A stretch of 26,741 nt of DNA from a virus, in the IMG/VR virus record IMGVR_UViG_3300031787_000707, positions 1 through 26,741 of that record; one strand, 5' to 3'. Positions 6,279-25,761 of this stretch are shown here, one piece after another. Both the position numbers and the translations under genes were made by a program. Below the pieces are notes generated by a model, which was not told where the DNA came from, did not search any database, and saw nothing but the letters and a program-made list of their open reading frames with translations. How positions within the stretch are numbered: the first letter of the stretch is position 1; every line of letters begins with the position of its first letter.

Positions 6279-6323
6279 TTTCGCGCTTCGTTCGCCTTTC
6301 TCCGGATTGGTCCGGTTCAACGA

Positions 6324-6361
6324 AAAACCCCTGGAAAGCGTTGGCTTTCCAGGGGTTTTTG
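6324..6361. terminator. Strong rho-independent terminator
   Basis: AACCCCTGGAAAGC and GCTTTCCAGGGGTT form a perfect stem with a GTTG loop, with an A-run before it and a T-run after it. It can therefore work in both directions: for the operon ending at 6261 and for anything arriving from the int side. Confidence 0.92.
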
Positions 6362-6375
6362 CTTGCCTTGGCGTA

Positions 6376-6422
6376 TCGGAGTGAGAGGATTTGAACCTCC
6401 GGCCCCTGCGTCCCGAACACAG
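6376..6422 (-). other. attP core: 3' half of a tRNA-Pro(CGG) gene
   Basis: On the minus strand this is the 3' half of a tRNA. It has an anticodon arm of CTGTG / TTCGGGA / CGCAG (6422-6406) with anticodon CGG, a short variable loop, a T arm with TTCAAAT (about 6400-6384), the acceptor strand CACTCCG (6383-6377) and an A discriminator. The 5' half (the matching CGGAGTG strand and D arm) is absent, so this is not a working gene. Phages that integrate into the 3' end of a tRNA carry exactly such a fragment so that the host gene is restored. It lies 84 bp from the 3' end of the integrase gene and is flanked by repeated arm-like sites. The exact crossover limits cannot be read from one sequence. 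Confidence 0.85.
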
Positions 6423-6505
6423 GCGTCCGGAATGCCGATATGCCTCCGGATGCATATTCTCAGCGGGTTAGCTCCGCATTGTTGGGCGTTGTCCGGCGTA
6501 AATCG

Positions 6506-7609
6506 TCACCGATCGGCGCGTAACGCAGGCTGTTGCGCCGGCCCCCAAGCCCCCTCAACCGCGTCCCGCAGATGGTGCGGCATCAGGTGCTTGTAGTTCC
6601 GCATGATCGTCTCGATGGTGTCCCCGACAATCTCCGCGACGAGCGCGGGCGGGACGCCGTTGGCGATCGCGTTGGTGATGTAGGTGTGCCGCAGAACGTG
6701 CGGCGTGACACCCTTCACGCCGGACTGCCGCATGAGCGTCGCGAAGGTCTTTTTGATCGAGCCCGGGTTGTCCAGGACGTATTCGCTTTTCCGCTCCGCG
6801 TGGGCGCGGACGATGATCGGCCAGAGCGCGGACGAGATAGGGACCGCCACGCGCCGCTTCTTGGTCCGCTGCCGCCCCGGCATCCGGTAGTCGATGAGGC
6901 GCTTTTCGAGGTCCACCTGAAACCACGTCAGCGTCTCGATGGCGCGGCGCCGGGCTGGCGCATGGAGGGCAAGCGCGGCGAAGCGGTGGACCCGCGACAG
7001 GCGCAGCGGCGTGTCGTCGTCCGCCTTCCGCCCCTGGCGGATCATGTCGTGGCGGTCCTCCTCAACGTAGGTTGTGAGGATCGCGCGCATTTCGTCCGGC
7101 GTCAGCACGCGGTTGCGGGGCTCCACCTTCGGAGGAAGCGCGATGTGCGGCACGTCGCCCAGGCGGAGGCGCCGGTTCCGGACGGCGTGGTTGAGCGCCG
7201 CGCGAAGATGCTCAAGCTCGCGGCGGATCGTCGCGTCGGAGCGACCGGCGCGGCTGCGGCGATACTTGAGAAGGATGGCGTCCGTAATGTCCGTGGGCAG
7301 CATCGGCCCGAAAAACGCCTTGATGGGCTGGCCGCACATCAGGGCGCGCTCCACGTCCACGGCGCGCTCCCTGATGTGTTCGTCCTCGTAGAGCGAGACG
7401 AGCGCCGCGATATCGGGCGGGCCTTCCTCGGCCTGCTCGATCCGCTCGCGCTCTATAATGAACGCGGCGAGGAACTTTTCAGCCGAACGGCGGCTGCGCG
7501 TCCCCGTCGAGCGGCGGCGTGATCTGCCGTTCTCGGTCCAGGTGATTTCCCAGTAACCGTCACTGTTGGGCCTGTCGGCAAGTCGTGTGCCTCGGTTCTC
7601 GCGGGGCAT
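6506..7609 (-). CDS. int: Phage tyrosine integrase
   Basis: A 367-residue tyrosine recombinase that would insert and excise the phage at tRNA-Pro. An N-terminal arm-binding/SAM-like region (about 1-165) precedes the catalytic domain. The catalytic residues are visible: an Arg cluster at 220-222 before AIETLTW, Lys 250/251, His304 and Arg307 in HVLRH, and nucleophile Tyr339 in NYKHL. The usual second His/Trp (GH motif) appears to be Asp330 (VGD), a variation seen in some integrases. The ATG has AAGGAG followed by a CACCAC spacer. The 3' end abuts the tRNA-derived attP, the normal order for this family. Its 5' end is overlapped by the Xis-like gene. Confidence 0.93.
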   Translation of the reverse strand: MPRENRGTRLADRPNSDGYWEITWTENGRSRRRSTGTRSRRSAEKFLAAFIIERERIEQAEEGPPDIAALVSLYEDEHIRERAVDVERALMCGQPIKAFFGPMLPTDITDAILLKYRRSRAGRSDATIRRELEHLRAALNHAVRNRRLRLGDVPHIALPPKVEPRNRVLTPDEMRAILTTYVEEDRHDMIRQGRKADDDTPLRLSRVHRFAALALHAPARRRAIETLTWFQVDLEKRLIDYRMPGRQRTKKRRVAVPISSALWPIIVRAHAERKSEYVLDNPGSIKKTFATLMRQSGVKGVTPHVLRHTYITNAIANGVPPALVAEIVGDTIETIMRNYKHLMPHHLRDAVEGAWGPAQQPALRADR

Positions 7610-7767
7610 GTGGTGCTGCTCCTTATGTAAGCCTGTAGCGCGTCGTCCGGAATAAGGACGGGCCGACCGGGGATGTATCCCAGCTTGCCGTCCAGCCGGA
7701 GGCGATAGACCGTCGCGGCGCTCTTGCGGAGGATGGTGGCGACCTCCGCCTGAGTGTGCAGTTTCAC
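7453..7767 (-). CDS. Excisionase-like MerR/HTH_17 protein overlapping int
   Basis: The first 50 or so residues follow the excisionase-family HTH pattern: HTQAEVATIL, a SAATVYRL recognition helix, a LDGKLGYIPGR wing and a PDDALQAYI helix. Such proteins bend attachment-site DNA and set the direction of recombination. The GTG start at 7767 overlaps the TGA of the repressor gene (GTGA), implying coupled translation. The frame has no stop until 7453, so the 104-residue product overlaps the int coding region by 157 bases; the last half is Arg/Pro-rich shadow-like sequence with no recognisable domain. Only the N-terminal domain is well supported. Confidence 0.7.
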   Translation of the reverse strand: MKLHTQAEVATILRKSAATVYRLRLDGKLGYIPGRPVLIPDDALQAYIRSSTTCPARTEAHDLPTGPTVTVTGKSPGPRTADHAAARRGRAAAVRLKSSSPRSL

Positions 7768-8186
7768 CGCACGCCCATGAGGATCGCGGTGATGGCGGCG
7801 GCCTGATCCTTCGACACGGGCTGGTTGACCGTGAGCCAGACCCGATCCGCGCCGGCCATCTGGCGCACCTGGAAGGCGGGCGCCTCGTTCTCGTTGCTGG
7901 CGCCGGGCGGCATCAGGTCTTCCGGCTGGCACCCCAACGCATCCGACAACTGCTTGAGAGCCTTCGGGCCGGGCATGGAAATGCCGCGCACATAGGTAGA
8001 GACGGCATCGCGCCCGCAATGCGAGGCGCGGGCAAGGTCCGCCTGCGAGAACGGAAGTGGCTTGTGCGACAGCATCCTCTCTTGCAGGCGGCGGGCGAAC
8101 TCCGATCGCACGGCGGCGCGCGGCCCAATGTCGGGCTCGGGCTCCGGTGCGGTCTGCTGGCGTGGCGGGAGTTTCTTGGCGCTCAT
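7764..8186 (-). CDS. XRE-family (CI-like) lysogeny repressor
   Basis: A 140-residue protein with a helix-turn-helix of the XRE/Cro-CI type at about residues 46-95 (FSQADLARAS, GRDAVSTYVRG, LKQLSDALGCQPEDLMP). The C-terminal part (DRVWLTVNQPVSKDQAAAI) is short and lacks the Ser-Lys peptidase of LexA/CI proteins, so RecA-stimulated self-cleavage is unlikely. It is divergent from a Cro-like gene, which is the classic immunity arrangement, and is followed by the Xis-like and integrase genes in one leftward unit. GGAGGAA lies upstream of ATG 8186, with a CCCACC spacer. It probably represses lytic promoters through the TGTCA-N3-TGACA sites described below. Confidence 0.85.
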   Translation of the reverse strand: MSAKKLPPRQQTAPEPEPDIGPRAAVRSEFARRLQERMLSHKPLPFSQADLARASHCGRDAVSTYVRGISMPGPKALKQLSDALGCQPEDLMPPGASNENEAPAFQVRQMAGADRVWLTVNQPVSKDQAAAITAILMGVR

Positions 8187-8363
8187 GGTGGGGTTCCTCC
8201 GGCGCGAGCCGCTAATGTAGGGCACAAGCGGGTGGCCTCTGTCAAGCTGACATATTCTGCCCAACGCGGCACGTCGCCTATTGTTTCCGACAAAATGACG
8301 GACTACACTCCGGAGTGTCGGGCGGCAAACCCGACAACGACCACCACACCACCACAGGGAACC
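8187..8363. promoter_or_regulatory. Divergent immunity control region
   Basis: The region lies between the repressor (leftward) and the Cro-like gene (rightward). Rightward promoter: TTGTTT (8281-8286), 17 nt, TACACT (8304-8309). Leftward: a perfect TTGACA -35 on the minus strand (8245-8240) with a poor -10 near 8217-8222. Palindromes: CTGTCA-N3-TGACAT (8239-8253) on the leftward -35; perfect ACACTCCGGAGTGT (8305-8318) on the rightward -10; TGTCGGG-N7-CCCGACA (8316-8336) just downstream. The last 24 bases are rich in CCACCAC before AGGGAACC and the ATG at 8364. Confidence 0.7.
8239..8253. promoter_or_regulatory. Candidate repressor operator, copy 1
   Basis: CTGTCAAGCTGACAT, a palindrome of the form TGTCA-N3-TGACA, covers the -35 of the leftward promoter. 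A second copy with the same arms and flanking bases but a different centre is at 17772-17786. Confidence 0.55.
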
Positions 8364-8633
8364 ATGACCACCACAAGAGAGAAAGAGGCGCCACGGCTTC
8401 GCGTGCGGCTCAAGGCGGCGGACCTGATCCGCTCCCTTGGCGGCACGGCAAAGATCGTGGCGCTGGCGGAGGAGCATCGCATCCTCGGCCTCACCACGGA
8501 CGCAATCGCCAAGTGGATCGAGCGCGACCGCATCACATTGACGGGGCTGCTGGCGCTGGACGCGCTGCGCCGCCGTCGCGCGATCCGGTATCGCCTCCAT
8601 CAGCATATCCGAGAGGAGAAAGTCGCGGCATGA
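8364..8633 (+). CDS. Cro-like HTH regulator
   Basis: An 89-residue protein, the first gene of the rightward lytic operon. The segment IRSLGGTAKIVALA followed by TTDAIAKWIERDRI matches Cro-type proteins, in which an LGG-x-(A/K)-x-(V/L)-A helix precedes a recognition helix and a W. It would bind the same region as the repressor and tip the balance toward lysis; this is inference from position and motif. The ATG at 8364 follows AGGGAACC. The stop overlaps the next ATG (ATGA). Confidence 0.7.
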   Translation: MTTTREKEAPRLRVRLKAADLIRSLGGTAKIVALAEEHRILGLTTDAIAKWIERDRITLTGLLALDALRRRRAIRYRLHQHIREEKVAA

Positions 8634-17817: not shown

Positions 17818-18918
17818 ATGCACGACCCGTTTGTGTTCACCGCCAGCGGAGCGCGGTTCTACCTGAACCGCCCCGACGCCAGCATGATCCGGCTGGACGA
17901 CATCTCTCACTCGCTGGCGAGCATCATCCGCTATTGCGGCTCGCACGCGCACCGCACCCCGGTCGCGGTCCACTCGATCATCGTCGCGGACATTCTGCGC
18001 GCCGAGCATCCGGACGCCGTGCGCCAGACGCCGGAGCTTCTGCTGGCCGCGCTGCTGCACGATGCGGCGGAGTGCTACATGGGCGACGTGCCGGCGCCGT
18101 TGAAGCGCATCCTGCCGAGCTACGCGCACATCGAGAACAACGTCATGGCCGTTGTCGAAGAAGCCTTCGAGCTTCCGCGCGGCATCATGAACCACCCCGC
18201 GCTGCGGGCGGCGGACAAGGAGGCTTTGCGGCACGAAGTCAGCGCGAACGTTCTTTCGTATCGCGAGGCCGCGATGAAGAACGCCAGCGCCGGCCGCATG
18301 AACGAAGCCGCGACCGCCGAGGCCATGGTCGCGAACCTCCGGCCCGTGGACTACGGGCTTCCGGACGGGACGGAATGGCTCGAAGCCCATGACGTTCACC
18401 CCGACGCCGGCAACATGGACGCGCAGGCCGGCCCTCATGCGTCGATGTTGTGGGTGCTGCGGTTTGAGGCGGAGGTCCGGCGCCTGGAAAACGTCGCGCC
18501 GCGCTCCCCCGCGATCGTCCGGGCTCACTCCATGATGGAGGAGGCGCGGACCCGCTCCCTGCGGTGGCGTCCGCTTTCGTCCTCGCGCCTGTTCGGGCTC
18601 GCCTACACCGAGGCGCCGGTCCCCGAACAACTCAAGCTGCCCGCCGCCAAGGCGGCGATCGCGGCCGCCTGCGCGACCACGGGCGACGTTCCGGACGACA
18701 AGCTGCGCGTCGCGGGAGACGATGCGGCGCTCGCCATCGTCCGGTTTGCGAAGAAGTTTCTCGAAGCGATGAGCGCCGACAACCTTCGGGGCGGCCTGGA
18801 CCCGGAGTTGGTCAAGACGGACCCCGCCCGCGCCGCCTTGCAGGCGATGGAAGAAGACGCTGAAAGCCGCCTGATGGGGCTGCTGCGGACGGCGCCGACC
18901 ACCGAGACGCGGCACTAG
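17818..18918 (+). CDS. HD-domain phosphohydrolase (YfbR/dNMP-type) with C-terminal extension
   Basis: A 366-residue protein. The N-terminal 200 residues are a phage HD domain: VHS (51-53), LLHDAAECYMGDVPAPLK (80-96; metal-binding His81-Asp82, then Glu85 and Asp90). Proteins of this type hydrolyse deoxynucleotides (5'-nucleotidase or dNTPase), which could change nucleotide pools in infected cells. From about residue 205 the sequence is different (WVLRFEAEVRRLENVAP, FAKKFLEAMSADNL) and not recognised; single HD proteins are usually about 200 residues. The role of the extension is open. It follows the 17795-17817 leader. Confidence 0.85.
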   Translation: MHDPFVFTASGARFYLNRPDASMIRLDDISHSLASIIRYCGSHAHRTPVAVHSIIVADILRAEHPDAVRQTPELLLAALLHDAAECYMGDVPAPLKRILPSYAHIENNVMAVVEEAFELPRGIMNHPALRAADKEALRHEVSANVLSYREAAMKNASAGRMNEAATAEAMVANLRPVDYGLPDGTEWLEAHDVHPDAGNMDAQAGPHASMLWVLRFEAEVRRLENVAPRSPAIVRAHSMMEEARTRSLRWRPLSSSRLFGLAYTEAPVPEQLKLPAAKAAIAAACATTGDVPDDKLRVAGDDAALAIVRFAKKFLEAMSADNLRGGLDPELVKTDPARAALQAMEEDAESRLMGLLRTAPTTETRH

Positions 18919-19313: not shown

Positions 19314-19451
19314 ATGCTCGCAATACCCTACTTGATCCTGGGGATCGCGCTCCTTGCCATCGCCTGGATGGCGACCGCAAGCGGCCCGAACCCCTGGTTC
19401 ATCGGCATCAGCGCCGTTGCCTTCCTCGCGACCGCATGGGTGAGCCGATGA
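19314..19451 (+). CDS. Small membrane protein (45 residues)
   Basis: Starts directly after the CCACCAC leader and ends in an ATGA overlap with the primase gene. Two hydrophobic segments (YLILGIALLAIAWMA and WFIGISAVAFLATAWV) with a GPNP turn predict a hairpin in the inner membrane. No family recognised. The leader, the coupling and the C/G third positions support it as a real gene. Confidence 0.65.
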   Translation: MLAIPYLILGIALLAIAWMATASGPNPWFIGISAVAFLATAWVSR

Positions 19452-21877
19452 GCGTCCCGATCATCCACGCGCCGAGCGTCCATGCGTTCCTGTCGGCGCT
19501 CCTGCCGCCAGGGGCGCGCATCGCCCTGCGAGGGGTGGGGGAGAAGGGCACCGACAAGTTCGGCGCCTTCTCCGAACCCGTCATGTGCGACACGACCCGC
19601 GCCATGGGCCACCTGACCCGGTGGACCGAGAACGGCATCGGCGCGTTCGTGGTGCCCGGCACCATCGCGCCCGGCGTCACCCGCACCGCGCCGCACGACG
19701 ATGACGTGATGGCGTTCACGTCGATCCTCGTTGACCTGGACGACGAGGCGCTGGCGGAGAAGGCCACGCACTACCTGAGCGAAATCCTGGGGCCGCCCTC
19801 GATCATCGTGGCGTCGTCCGGAACCGCGAGCCCGAAGCGCCACCTGTATTGGCTGCTGGACGAGCCCTGCGAGGACACGCGCATGATCGCCGCCACGCGC
19901 CGCCATCTGGCGGAGCTTGTGGGCGGTGACGCGGCGTTCTTCCGCATCCCGCAAATCATCCGCGTGCCCGGCACGACCAACCACAAGGGCGGCGAGAAGC
20001 GTCCTGTCGCGCTGGTCAAGTGCGAGCCGGAGACGCGCTACACCCTGGACGATCTGCTGGCCGCGATTGCGGACGCGGAGCGTCCGGCCTGGGCGCCAGA
20101 GCCGAAGCGCATCAAGCGCCCCACCGTGAACGAGCAAGGCTTGCTGGTGTTCACGCCGGAGACGGGGACGGACACGCGGGCGCCGCTCGCGCTCACGCAG
20201 GATATCACCGAGGGCGGCGGGCCGGACGCGAACCGCTGGTCCGAGTTTTCCCGCGTGGCTGGGCACTACATCCACGCGCTCCGGGCCGGACAGGTCGCGA
20301 CCCCGGAGGAGGCGAAGGCGCTCACCGAGGGGTGGATGCTGGCGCACATGAAGCCGGCATGGCCTGCGGACAGGTTTGAGCGCGAGTGGGCCGCGATCCT
20401 GTCGCGGGACATCAACGACAAGGGACCGATTGCCGCATCCAAGCCGGTGCTGTCGCAGGGGATCAGCGCGAGCGCATGGCAGGCTGCGGCGGAGGAGGGC
20501 GGAGAGGCAGCGTCGGGTGGTGCCGGCGTCGAAGGCGATAGCGGGGGCTCCGTGGCTACCGCCGATGCCTCTCCGCCCCCTGGGAACTTCTTGCAGATGT
20601 TCGCGGCCCGCCGCTGGACGATGAGCGAGAAGCCCGTCCGGAAATGGCTGGTTCAAGGGCTCGTCGCCGCCCGCAAGTCGCACCTTCTTGTGGCCGAGGG
20701 CGGCGCTGGCAAGACCTACGCCGTGTTGGACCTGGGTATGAAGATCGCCGCCCCGCGCATGGGGGACCGCTGGTTGGGCCAGATGGTCAACCGCGAGGCG
20801 CAAGGGACTGTCGTGATCCTGACGGCGGAGGACGACAAGGACGAAATCCACATCCGGCTTGCGGACATGGACCCGGACGGCTCCCGCCGCGCAGCGGCGG
20901 GGGACCGCTTCATCGTCGTCCCATTGATGGAGGCGGGCGGAGCCCTGCGGCTGGTGCAGCGGAACCCGGCGACCGGCGCGAGCGAGGGAACGCCGGCCTT
21001 TGAGAAGACCTTGGCGTGGCTCAAGGAAATCCCCGACCTCCGGCTGGTAATCTTCGACACGCTCGCCAGCACGCTCCATGGGGACGAGAACTCCTCCATG
21101 ATCGCACAGGAATGGGCCTACGCGGCGCAGCGGATTATCTCCGAGTGCCGCGCGGCCTACATGGCGCTGCATCACGTCCGGAAGATGGACCGGCAGCGGC
21201 GAGCCTCGAAGGACGCCGCCCCGCGCACGATCGAGGACGTGCGGGACGATATCCGTGGCTCGAACGCGCTCACGTCCGCCGTCCGTCTGGCAATCGTGAT
21301 CTGGCAACCGGAGGATTGGAAGGACCGCATGGAACGCCTGGGCCTGCCCCCGAAGCGCGGGCACCTGTGGCAGATGGGCGTCGCGAAGGCGAACAACCCC
21401 GAAGCCATGGCCGGCGAGCGGACGCTGATGCGGACGAGCATCGGATCGCTGGAAGATATCACCGAGACGGTGAGGGCCACGAACCAGCGCGAGCGGGATG
21501 GTGAGGCCGAGGTTATGGCCTGGGCGCTCTGGCACATCGAGCAGGCGGCCATTCGGTTCACTCCGTTCACCCGCCACGGGAGCAACAGCATGTTCGCGGC
21601 CCGTGGCCGGCTGCACCCATGCTTGCGGACGCTCAAGCGCGACGAGCTACAGAACGAGCCGAAGGTTGGGCTGGATCGGTCCATCGTCGGGCGGCTGCTG
21701 ACGGCGCCGGAAGGCGGCGGCGAGGCGCCCGTGATGGTGCGGGGCGGCTACATGGACGTGCCGCATGGGCCTATCGCCATGGGCGAGAAGCCGGACACGC
21801 GGGGCCTGCGGCAGACGCCGGATTGGAGCGCGTGGGAATACGACGCGGAGAAAGACATGATCGTGAGGAGGAAGTGA
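19448..21877 (+). CDS. Primase-RepA helicase fusion protein
   Basis: An 809-residue replication protein. The N-terminal part is an archaeo-eukaryotic type primase: ILVDLDD (about 93-99, catalytic Asp pair), SPKRHLYW (about 128-135) and RVPGTTNHK (about 171-179), as in RepB-like and PrimPol proteins. The C-terminal part is a RepA-like AAA_25 ATPase with Walker A GGAGKT (about 418-423), Walker B IFDT (about 535) and LHHVRK (about 574). A 70-residue Gly/Ala-rich linker separates the two. It would open the origin and prime replication. No DNA polymerase gene is visible, so host Pol III is presumably used. The start at 19448 overlaps the small membrane gene. Confidence 0.88.
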   Translation: MSVPIIHAPSVHAFLSALLPPGARIALRGVGEKGTDKFGAFSEPVMCDTTRAMGHLTRWTENGIGAFVVPGTIAPGVTRTAPHDDDVMAFTSILVDLDDEALAEKATHYLSEILGPPSIIVASSGTASPKRHLYWLLDEPCEDTRMIAATRRHLAELVGGDAAFFRIPQIIRVPGTTNHKGGEKRPVALVKCEPETRYTLDDLLAAIADAERPAWAPEPKRIKRPTVNEQGLLVFTPETGTDTRAPLALTQDITEGGGPDANRWSEFSRVAGHYIHALRAGQVATPEEAKALTEGWMLAHMKPAWPADRFEREWAAILSRDINDKGPIAASKPVLSQGISASAWQAAAEEGGEAASGGAGVEGDSGGSVATADASPPPGNFLQMFAARRWTMSEKPVRKWLVQGLVAARKSHLLVAEGGAGKTYAVLDLGMKIAAPRMGDRWLGQMVNREAQGTVVILTAEDDKDEIHIRLADMDPDGSRRAAAGDRFIVVPLMEAGGALRLVQRNPATGASEGTPAFEKTLAWLKEIPDLRLVIFDTLASTLHGDENSSMIAQEWAYAAQRIISECRAAYMALHHVRKMDRQRRASKDAAPRTIEDVRDDIRGSNALTSAVRLAIVIWQPEDWKDRMERLGLPPKRGHLWQMGVAKANNPEAMAGERTLMRTSIGSLEDITETVRATNQRERDGEAEVMAWALWHIEQAAIRFTPFTRHGSNSMFAARGRLHPCLRTLKRDELQNEPKVGLDRSIVGRLLTAPEGGGEAPVMVRGGYMDVPHGPIAMGEKPDTRGLRQTPDWSAWEYDAEKDMIVRRK

Positions 21878-23913: not shown

Positions 23914-24040
23914 ATATCTGCCCTATCGCGCTTTTGTGCGTCTTGAAGGGAAACCCTTACGCGGCTAAGGGAATGGCGCCGAGGCCCGCCACGGCCCCGG
24001 CGCCGCACCACCACATCCCTACCTCGCGGCAGAGGCAGTG

Positions 24041-24083
24041 AGCATCCCGGGAGCCCACCACGGCGACCGGGATGCTTTGTCTT
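24041..24083 (+). terminator. Rho-independent terminator of the replication operon
   Basis: AGCATCCCGG (24041-24050) and CCGGGATGCT (24067-24076) form a perfect 10-bp stem, followed by TTGTCTT. The 16-nt loop contains GAGCCCACCAC, the same words as the recurring gene leader. Confidence 0.85.
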
Positions 24084-24328
24084 ATGTCAATATGTCAGCG
24101 ATCATTCAAGCACCTGCCCAGGTTACAAGCAGTTAATTACAAAGCGCATTGATCGGTGGGGGCTTCGAGAGTGCCCGGTTTATAAGGTTCCGTGGCTCCG
24201 ATCTGCGTTTCCGGACGAGACAAAATCTTACATGCCCAGCAAATACAGGATTTGGCCGATGTTATTGAAGGAGCGTCACGACCCCGGTATCAGAAAGTAG
24301 ATTTTTAGACGCCTGAAATATCAATGGG

Positions 24329-24412
24329 TTAGAGGGGGTCCCCCCCCTTCGTTTCCTGGGATTAGATTAACGTTTGGGAAGCGTGTCTCAAAAGTCAAGG
24401 GACCCCCCCTAA
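24329..24412. repeat. G-tract inverted repeat
   Basis: TTAGAGGGGGTCCC (24329-24342) recurs in inverted orientation at 24399-24412 as TTAGGGGGGGTCCC (one mismatch in 14), about 56 bp apart. The copies may be protein-binding sites or G-rich structures. Function unknown. Confidence 0.6.
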
Positions 24413-24500
24413 GCCATTGAAGAATAAGGCTCCTAGGTTTTCCGGATTTCCAAGAGTAGGCGTTTTCGAGCCTTATAGAATGGGCGTTTCTGACTTTCCC

Positions 24501-24574
24501 CTATACCTATAGGTATAGAGGCAGAGAGCCTCATATACCTCTTAGGGAGAGGCTATACCTCTACCTATAGGTAG
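24501..24574. repeat. Cluster of TATACCT repeats and palindromes
   Basis: CTATACCTATAGGTATAG (24501-24518) and CTACCTATAGGTAG (24561-24574) are perfect palindromes sharing TACCTATAGGTA. Between them lie GAGGC-N5-GCCTC (24518-24532) and CCTCT-N5-AGAGG (24538-24552). TATACCT occurs three times in direct orientation (24502, 24534, 24554) and once inverted (24511). Repeats this dense suggest iterons for an initiator protein, or a partition or resolution site. Confidence 0.6.
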
Positions 24575-24663
24575 GGCGCGATCCGGATGCGTTCGTCGGC
24601 GGCGCTGGCGAGTGCGGGGAGGAGCGTGATATCCTCCGGCGCACGAACGGAGGACGCCCCACC

Positions 24664-25008
24664 ATGGCCCACACCATCGTTACCACCGAAGCCCGCAACG
24701 GAACCTCCCACACCTACACCCACGCTGAGAGCGGACTGACGGCTGACGGAACCGATGGGCTGGCGAGGTTGTGCCGGAAGCTGGGCGCGCTGGGGTATTC
24801 GGGGCCGGCCGAAATCAAGGGCGAGGATGGGCGGCTGCACTACACCGTGCGGGGCGTCGAGCGGGTGGCGAAGCTGACGCTGACGGAGGGGGACCGGAGC
24901 GGCCTCAAGTGGCAGACCTACAGACCGAACCCCATGGCCGCCGCGAGGATGGCCGGTTCCGCTGGTGCGGGGGCGACCGAGAACGGCTTTTCGGGGGAGG
25001 GGAGCTAG
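24664..25008 (+). CDS. Hypothetical phage protein
   Basis: A 114-residue protein with a clear start: GGAGG, a CCCCACC spacer and ATG. Segments HTIVTTEARNGTSHTYTH, EIKGEDGRLHYTVRG and RVAKLTLTEG look like a small beta-rich domain, and the tail is Gly/Ala-rich. Not recognised. First gene after the non-coding region and directly upstream of the RusA-type gene, with which it is probably co-transcribed. Confidence 0.65.
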   Translation: MAHTIVTTEARNGTSHTYTHAESGLTADGTDGLARLCRKLGALGYSGPAEIKGEDGRLHYTVRGVERVAKLTLTEGDRSGLKWQTYRPNPMAAARMAGSAGAGATENGFSGEGS

Positions 25009-25761
25009 GTGGGTAGCGGCGAGGAGCAAAAAGCCGCTGGCGAGGCTCCTGAGAGGGAAATCGAAATCGAGGCGGAGGCGCTTCTGTGCGAGGCGCCGTC
25101 GTGTGCTCATCTGGCCGACACGCCACGGGCGGCGAGCGTCCCGGTCGCGAGCCTCTACGTCTCCGGCAAGCCACGCCCGAAGCAGTCGGGCCGGATGGTG
25201 CGCGGCGCGTTCGGGCGGTCGCGCTTTGTGAGCCAAGCCACGGCGGACAAGGGGATCAAGCTCTACCGGGAGCGGCTGACGCGCAGAGCACGGGAGGTCA
25301 TGGATATGATGGGCGGGCCGGAGAACGTCGCGGAGTGGACGAAAGCGCGAGGCGGCACAGCCGGGCTCTGGCTCATCGTGCGGTGGACGTTCGAGACGCC
25401 ACGGCGCGAGCGGTGGGGCGAGCCGCACACGGCGAAGCCAGACGCGGACAACCTGAGTAAGCTCCTTCTCGATGCGCTGTCTGACGGCGGCTGGTTCACG
25501 GGCTGGCGGAACGACGACGCGGCCGGCGCGAGGCTGTCCCTGGAAAAAACCTGGGGGCAGACGAGCGGGGTGGGCGTGGAAATGCGCGCCCTGGTGCCGG
25601 GCTCCCGCGAGAAGCGCGAGGCGCCGTCGTGTGCCTACGGGGAGCCGCCCGCGTGGCTGGCCGATGACGGCGTGCCCGCCTGGGTGCTGGCGGGAGCGGG
25701 CGAGGGGGTCGTGATAGACCCCCTGGGGGATCTAGTTCCGGACGGCGACGGGACGGATTAG
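25009..25761 (+). CDS. RusA-like Holliday junction resolvase with extensions
   Basis: A 250-residue protein. The RusA core spans about residues 48-185: VSGKPRPKQSGR, then KPDADNLSKLLLDAL (143-157) and WRNDDA (166-171), whose Asp145, Asp147 and Asp169/170 match the metal-binding residues of RusA. It would cut Holliday junctions produced during recombination-dependent replication. It begins with GTG directly after the previous TAG, with GGGGAG upstream. RusA proteins are usually about 120-140 residues; here about 45 residues precede and 65 follow the core. A 19-bp direct repeat (25088-25106 and 25616-25634) encodes EAPSCA in both extensions. Confidence 0.85.
   Translation: MGSGEEQKAAGEAPEREIEIEAEALLCEAPSCAHLADTPRAASVPVASLYVSGKPRPKQSGRMVRGAFGRSRFVSQATADKGIKLYRERLTRRAREVMDMMGGPENVAEWTKARGGTAGLWLIVRWTFETPRRERWGEPHTAKPDADNLSKLLLDALSDGGWFTGWRNDDAAGARLSLEKTWGQTSGVGVEMRALVPGSREKREAPSCAYGEPPAWLADDGVPAWVLAGAGEGVVIDPLGDLVPDGDGTD
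25088..25634 (+). repeat. 19-bp direct repeat flanking the RusA core
   Basis: GCGAGGCGCCGTCGTGTGC occurs at 25088-25106 and 25616-25634, in the same reading frame, encoding EAPSCA. It brackets the conserved catalytic domain. It may mark a duplicated linker or a recombination junction. Confidence 0.6.

Follow-up and report, generated by a model that had tools for sequence, protein, structure and literature searches.

The question raised by this locus is what function resides in a gene-free, repeat-bearing region (about 24076-24576, hereafter the element) of a viral genome. An earlier note on the same DNA had proposed that it is the phage origin of replication, with a packaging (cos or pac) site or a partition site as the alternatives. 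We analysed the whole stretch of 26,741 nt (the window; IMG/VR record IMGVR_UViG_3300031787_000707), which two near-identical overlapping contigs extend by 4.3 kb to the left and 8.6 kb to the right. The window encodes an integrase next to tRNA-Pro, a CI-like repressor, Sak4, a helicase, a Cas4-type exonuclease, a lysin, a primase-helicase, a methyltransferase and RusA, and the overlapping contigs add a CobS-like ATPase, a tail fibre and a terminase; judging from this gene content, its source is a temperate phage. The gene for the RusA-type Holliday junction resolvase (25009-25761, plus strand; Pfam RusA and phrog_140, synteny) serves as a positional marker, the element being located just upstream of it in the window's phage family; in the window one ORF of 114 aa (24664-25008) separates the two, and the terminase lies about 8.4 kb downstream of the element. 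Elsewhere in the window, the tRNA-Pro (cgg) and integrase genes (6318-6448 and 6506-7609), together with a strong inverted repeat (6318-6365), make up the probable attP and terminator region. Past the window's right end, the CobS-like AAA ATPase gene adjoins a DUF7192 gene (L061, 5320-7620, minus strand).

Over a 250-bp segment of the element (24076-24326), GC falls to 0.46, its minimum for the whole window (versus about 0.67), and no ORF of at least 50 aa is present within about 23970-24560, so that the lower-GC, gene-free character noticed earlier is borne out. Stop-to-stop frames in this region have neither a Pfam match nor a significant phage match. One protein-like open stretch on the plus strand (24060-24300, including CPGYKQLITKRIDRWGLRECPVYKVPWLRSAF) has no usual start codon and no significant relatives, and is perhaps a gene remnant or due to chance.

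The right part of the element is occupied by palindromes and short repeats, most of which the earlier note had listed. Two perfect palindromes sharing TACCTATAGGTA (24504-24515 and 24562-24573, 58 bp from start to start) were found as described, and no third copy with up to two mismatches exists anywhere in the window (chance mean 0.04). Inverted-repeat and motif scans delimit them as CTATACCTATAGGTATAG (24501-24518) and CTACCTATAGGTAG (24561-24574), the former containing two inverted TATACCT half-sites (24502 on the plus and 24511 on the minus strand). The two short hairpins reported between the palindromes can be seen in the sequence as well, GAGGC-AGAGA-GCCTC at 24519-24533 and CCTCT-TAGGG-AGAGG at 24539-24553. 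All three direct TATACCT copies are present, two of them outside the palindromes (24534-24540 and 24554-24560, plus strand, motif scan), but the count was incomplete, the inverted copy at 24511 being the fourth; no further copy of the motif exists in the window (chance mean 0.12 for its whole length) or in the flanking DNA added by the overlapping contigs. Repeats of the element are 7-9 bp long and stand in both orientations. Further upstream, inverted-repeat scan and folding revealed the G-tract inverted repeat with 22-bp arms (24321-24342 and 24399-24420), two mismatches and a span of exactly 100 nt (24321-24420); the start that the earlier note gave for the region as a whole, 24329, cuts off the outer part of the first arm. 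Folded as DNA, this hairpin has a z of -3.2, and only two inverted repeats of such quality are present in the window (the other at 6318-6365), with none in 30 shuffles. A match of the region to wcaG RNA (RF01761) was rejected, as it scored 24.5 bits against a gathering cut-off of 42 and had broken pairs.

The stem-loop arms coincide with binding-site-like boxes for the integration host factor (IHF). The only exact match of the window to the IHF consensus, TATCAATGGGTTA (24319-24331, plus strand; chance mean 0.06), lies at the first arm, and a second, inverted box with two mismatches to the consensus, CTTCAATGGCTTA (24410-24422, minus strand), lies at the second. A TTAAGTNRTTGA-like box recurs among the elements of related phages described below, and its reverse complement agrees with the IHF consensus WATCAANNNNTTR. 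With up to one mismatch, the consensus was detected in 29 of the 31 elements compared, at 1.29 per 550 bp versus 0.19 elsewhere, a sevenfold higher density; in the complete genome G013 the exact consensus occurs once, inside the element. A weight matrix of the box, trained on relatives with the window and G013 left out, gave 28.5 bits at the element of G013, its top hit in that genome (the next hit scoring 17.8). In the window its best hit was at the second stem arm (24408), with a weak score of 7.3 bits, and the first arm ranked fifth.

The replication gene of primary interest codes for a primase-helicase (19436-21877, plus strand). The product matches Pfam AAA_25 and, by profile, RSF1010 RepA (1g8y, E 1e-8), and its C-terminal half is, on these matches, homologous to RepA. 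In the predicted model (mean pLDDT 70.6, pTM 0.43), residues 8-212 carry an archaeo-eukaryotic primase fold resembling cyanophage S-2L PrimPol (Z 21.4, 2.3 Å over 183 residues); residues 8-238 resemble the catalytic domain of RSF1010 RepB' (3h25; Z 17.7, 2.9 Å over 178 residues), and residues 399-687 resemble RSF1010 RepA (Z 19.8, 3.4 Å over 226). The protein is therefore predicted to fuse the folds of two RSF1010 enzymes, the primase RepB' and the hexameric helicase RepA, both of them clear in the model; the arrangement of the domains towards each other is unreliable, since pTM is only 0.43. The earlier note had placed the element close to this gene: it is near, but not adjacent, the gene ending about 2.45 kb upstream. 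We presume that the primase-helicase is the initiator for the element. No RepC match was obtained among the proteins scanned, a subset of the window-phage ORFs, no initiator of RepA-N or Rep_3 type was recognised in the window phage, and our search found no solved structure that tells what binds the iterons.

At the DNA level, homologues of the element were detected neither in phages nor in E. coli genomes or viral contigs (the overlapping contigs of the same phage excepted), and plasmids gave only short matches (E = 2 to 6). A scan of genome contigs yielded no relatives. Pairs of TACCTATAGGTA do occur in five other viral contigs (L062, L063, L064, L065 and L066, with two to three palindromes at short spacing); they were discounted, their contexts being unrelated. 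What is conserved is the layout, with other iterons. Alignment of the primase-helicase protein yielded 69 loci, two of them from the window's own phage, and where contigs reach, the gene order is (Int, CI) - Sak4 - helicase - Cas4 - primase-helicase - RusA. A gene-free, mostly AT-richer element precedes RusA in the lineages related to the window, and in nearly all relatives examined it is built alike, with inverted repeats, a conserved IHF-type box and a 7-8-mer that stands in both orientations and is peculiar to the lineage. The iterons differ completely among lineages, being GAGGACAC in L127-L142, GAGGACGC in L126, L148 and L153, GAGGAAG in L090, L098, L105, L109, L111, L117, L120, L143 and G013, and GAGGAT-like in L088 and L094; the element of L089 fits the shared design weakly.

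How strongly are these repeats confined to the element? An unbiased scan for the top 7-mer put the element in first place in just two genomes, owing to competition from repeats in coding regions, and was replaced by counts expressed relative to the remainder of each contig. By this measure GAGGACAC, GAGGACGC, GAGGAAG and the TATACCT of the window are enriched, with Poisson P from 5e-4 to <1e-13, values that are optimistic because the repeats were chosen after inspection; related phages carrying elements are moreover non-independent observations. The density of inverted repeats with a length of 16 bp or more is about twentyfold higher in elements (1.82 per kb) than outside (0.095 per kb), with 15 of 28 elements having any that pass the cut-off.

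Outside the window's family, the isolated Rhizobium phage RHph_Y3_1 carries an element with eight GGGAACG repeats and two boxes, GTTAAGTCATTGAAAA and GCTAAGGCATTGAAAA, directly 3' of its annotated DNA primase/helicase gene, at about 12.93-13.24 kb of MN988490. Similarly, an Azospirillum oryzae replicon has three GGGGATC repeats and two boxes directly 3' of the primase-helicase gene. Within the window's family the element lies close to RusA, at a distance from RepA that can amount to kilobases. It follows that the element tracks the primase-helicase across families, and RusA within the family of the window.

This tie to RusA raises the possibility that we are dealing with the promoter and operator, or the transcript leader, of the RusA operon, the palindromes binding a regulator and the hairpins acting in the transcript. 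A terminator-like hairpin (24041-24084, plus strand; 15-nt arms, 6-nt loop and T-rich tail), seen in the sequence and by inverted-repeat scan and missed by a simple terminator scan owing to two mismatches in the stem, closes the upstream operon, so RusA probably needs a promoter of its own here. In favour of this reading, too, compensatory changes at 7 pairs preserve the hairpins of the GAGGACAC lineage. Yet a simple scan revealed no sigma-70-like promoter, the element of RHph_Y3_1 follows the primase-helicase gene with the next two ORFs past it matching no RusA family, and iteron arrays in two orientations together with IHF boxes exceed what a promoter needs. A purely regulatory role is thus rather unlikely; a promoter within an origin would be compatible with our main reading, and that of RusA is probably also located in the element.

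The position of the terminase bears on the second explanation, a cos or pac site at which terminase would bind the repeats, IHF bend the DNA and packaging start. The cos site of lambda also combines repeats with an IHF site, and the terminase context of the window phage is only partly known. However, the terminase is not adjacent, being 8.4 kb away in the window phage and 6-8 kb downstream of the element in relatives with a homologous terminase, and the element is retained in the GAGGACAC lineage, whose terminase is of a different family; both facts argue against packaging, which we regard as very unlikely. Nearer to the terminase, at least one relative has other IHF-like sites accompanied by inverted repeats. 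As judged from these genomes, the element accompanies the replication module rather than the terminase. A candidate packaging site of the phage L153 lies at 18540-18680 (in G008 at the corresponding position, about 12270), where a second IHF-like box, CGTAAGTCGTTGATCGGA, is flanked by inverted repeats some 2.7 kb ahead of the terminase match.

Two perfect palindromes with half-sites also resemble operators, and the phage encodes a helix-turn-helix repressor (the CI-like protein, 7764-8606), for which the element might be an operator array, e.g., one serving immunity or silencing. As a rule, CI repressors bind at their own promoters, and the absence of any palindrome copy (up to two mismatches) near the repressor gene, or anywhere else in the window, argues against it; besides, the GAGGACAC contigs searched have no match to the integrase or repressor of the window, yet keep the element, which makes this explanation highly improbable. 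There is hardly any chance that the element is a centromere-like partition site of a prophage kept as a plasmid, since, for all its iteron-like repeats without coding function, no partition gene was found among the subset of ORF products scanned and an integrase is present.

Taken together, the anatomy of the element, the confinement of its repeats, its recurrence in relatives and the enzyme folds suggest that the region is probably the replication origin of this temperate phage, all the more so because elements of the same layout directly follow the primase-helicase gene in RHph_Y3_1 and Azospirillum. These features favour an origin with iterons, IHF sites and stem-loops over a packaging, operator or partition site, and elements of the same architecture at the same place in related phages support the original proposal. 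The element displays what characterises iteron origins: a cluster of short repeats restricted to a single intergenic region near replication genes, an AT-rich segment and an IHF site. Many, but not all, iteron-type origins have a DnaA box, an optional feature of the class; the window has none. The mechanism we infer would combine iteron binding, IHF bending, melting and priming at the stem arms. The TATACCT iterons would be bound by an initiator, for which the phage primase-helicase itself is the simplest candidate and a partner protein the alternative, and host IHF would bend the DNA at the two inverted boxes in the stem-loop arms. The AT-rich and stem-loop DNA would then open and the RepA-type helicase load on the opened element, and the fused primase would start primers on the exposed arms, one per strand, in the manner of RSF1010 RepB' at ssiA and ssiB.

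Known systems share parts of this arrangement. In RSF1010 (IncQ), RepC binds the iterons, RepA unwinds and RepB' primes at ssiA/ssiB (PMC4234260). Its oriV likewise has an iteron array and stem-loops, which in RSF1010 are primase start sites, and the RepA and RepB' folds recur in the phage protein; in the phage, however, primase and helicase are fused, no RepC was seen and IHF-type boxes are present in the stem arms. The 20-bp direct iterons of RSF1010 contrast with the shorter, two-orientation repeats of the phage, and the inverted stem arms of the window may be the counterpart of the two inverted ssi stem-loops of RSF1010, their use by the primase being putative. The plasmid pRN1 requires for replication a 100-nt stem-loop 3' of its primase-helicase gene orf904, of which an equivalent was proposed in phage BIP-1 (PMC4234260). 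The window has a stem-loop of the same length downstream of an archaeo-eukaryotic primase-helicase fusion gene; unlike that of pRN1 it stands about 2.4 kb away from the gene, and whereas the helicase of pRN1 and BIP-1 is of SF3 type and both lack an iteron array, the phage has a RepA-type helicase and iterons. In phage P4, one multifunctional protein, alpha, primes, unwinds and is thought to bind repeats (PMC4234260). The presence of a single phage protein with primase and helicase is common to both, but the domain folds differ, the P4 primase being of Toprim type. The phage element also resembles origins of pSC101/R6K type in its repeats, IHF site and AT-rich DNA, and differs in the lack of a DnaA box and of a recognised RepA-N or Rep_3-type initiator. 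Both pSC101 and R6K are examples of iteron origins with IHF.

We tentatively raise the possibility of an undescribed class of origins, in which a single fused primase-helicase would do without any separate initiator or loader and itself recognise inverted iterons, specific to each lineage, around stem-loops bent by IHF, and in which iterons switch between lineages and so set which phages share or block each other's replication. In any case, the element provides a concrete, testable origin candidate for uncultivated phages of a group whose primase and helicase are fused. The sharp differences in iterons among otherwise similar phages offer a natural series for identifying the iteron-reading protein and for following changes in origin specificity, and the same layout in the isolated RHph_Y3_1 makes a cultured phage available as a starting point.

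GC skew, which the earlier note had named as a check, was uninformative: no sign change or classical switch occurs at the element. A block of strong positive skew (about +0.2 over some 6 kb) does start near it, from 24664 to the right end of the window and in L061, and continues across minus-strand genes; such a local block after the element is confined to the window and the GAGGAAG lineage. Finally, more distant phages with RepA-type helicases (L010, L012, L022, L023, L028, L030, L036 and L050) carry similar clusters, such as GGGGGGTGACGTAGGTGACGTAAAATAACGTATTGAT or TGTCAC repeats with TAACCTATTGAT, located 4-7 kb from the helicase match.
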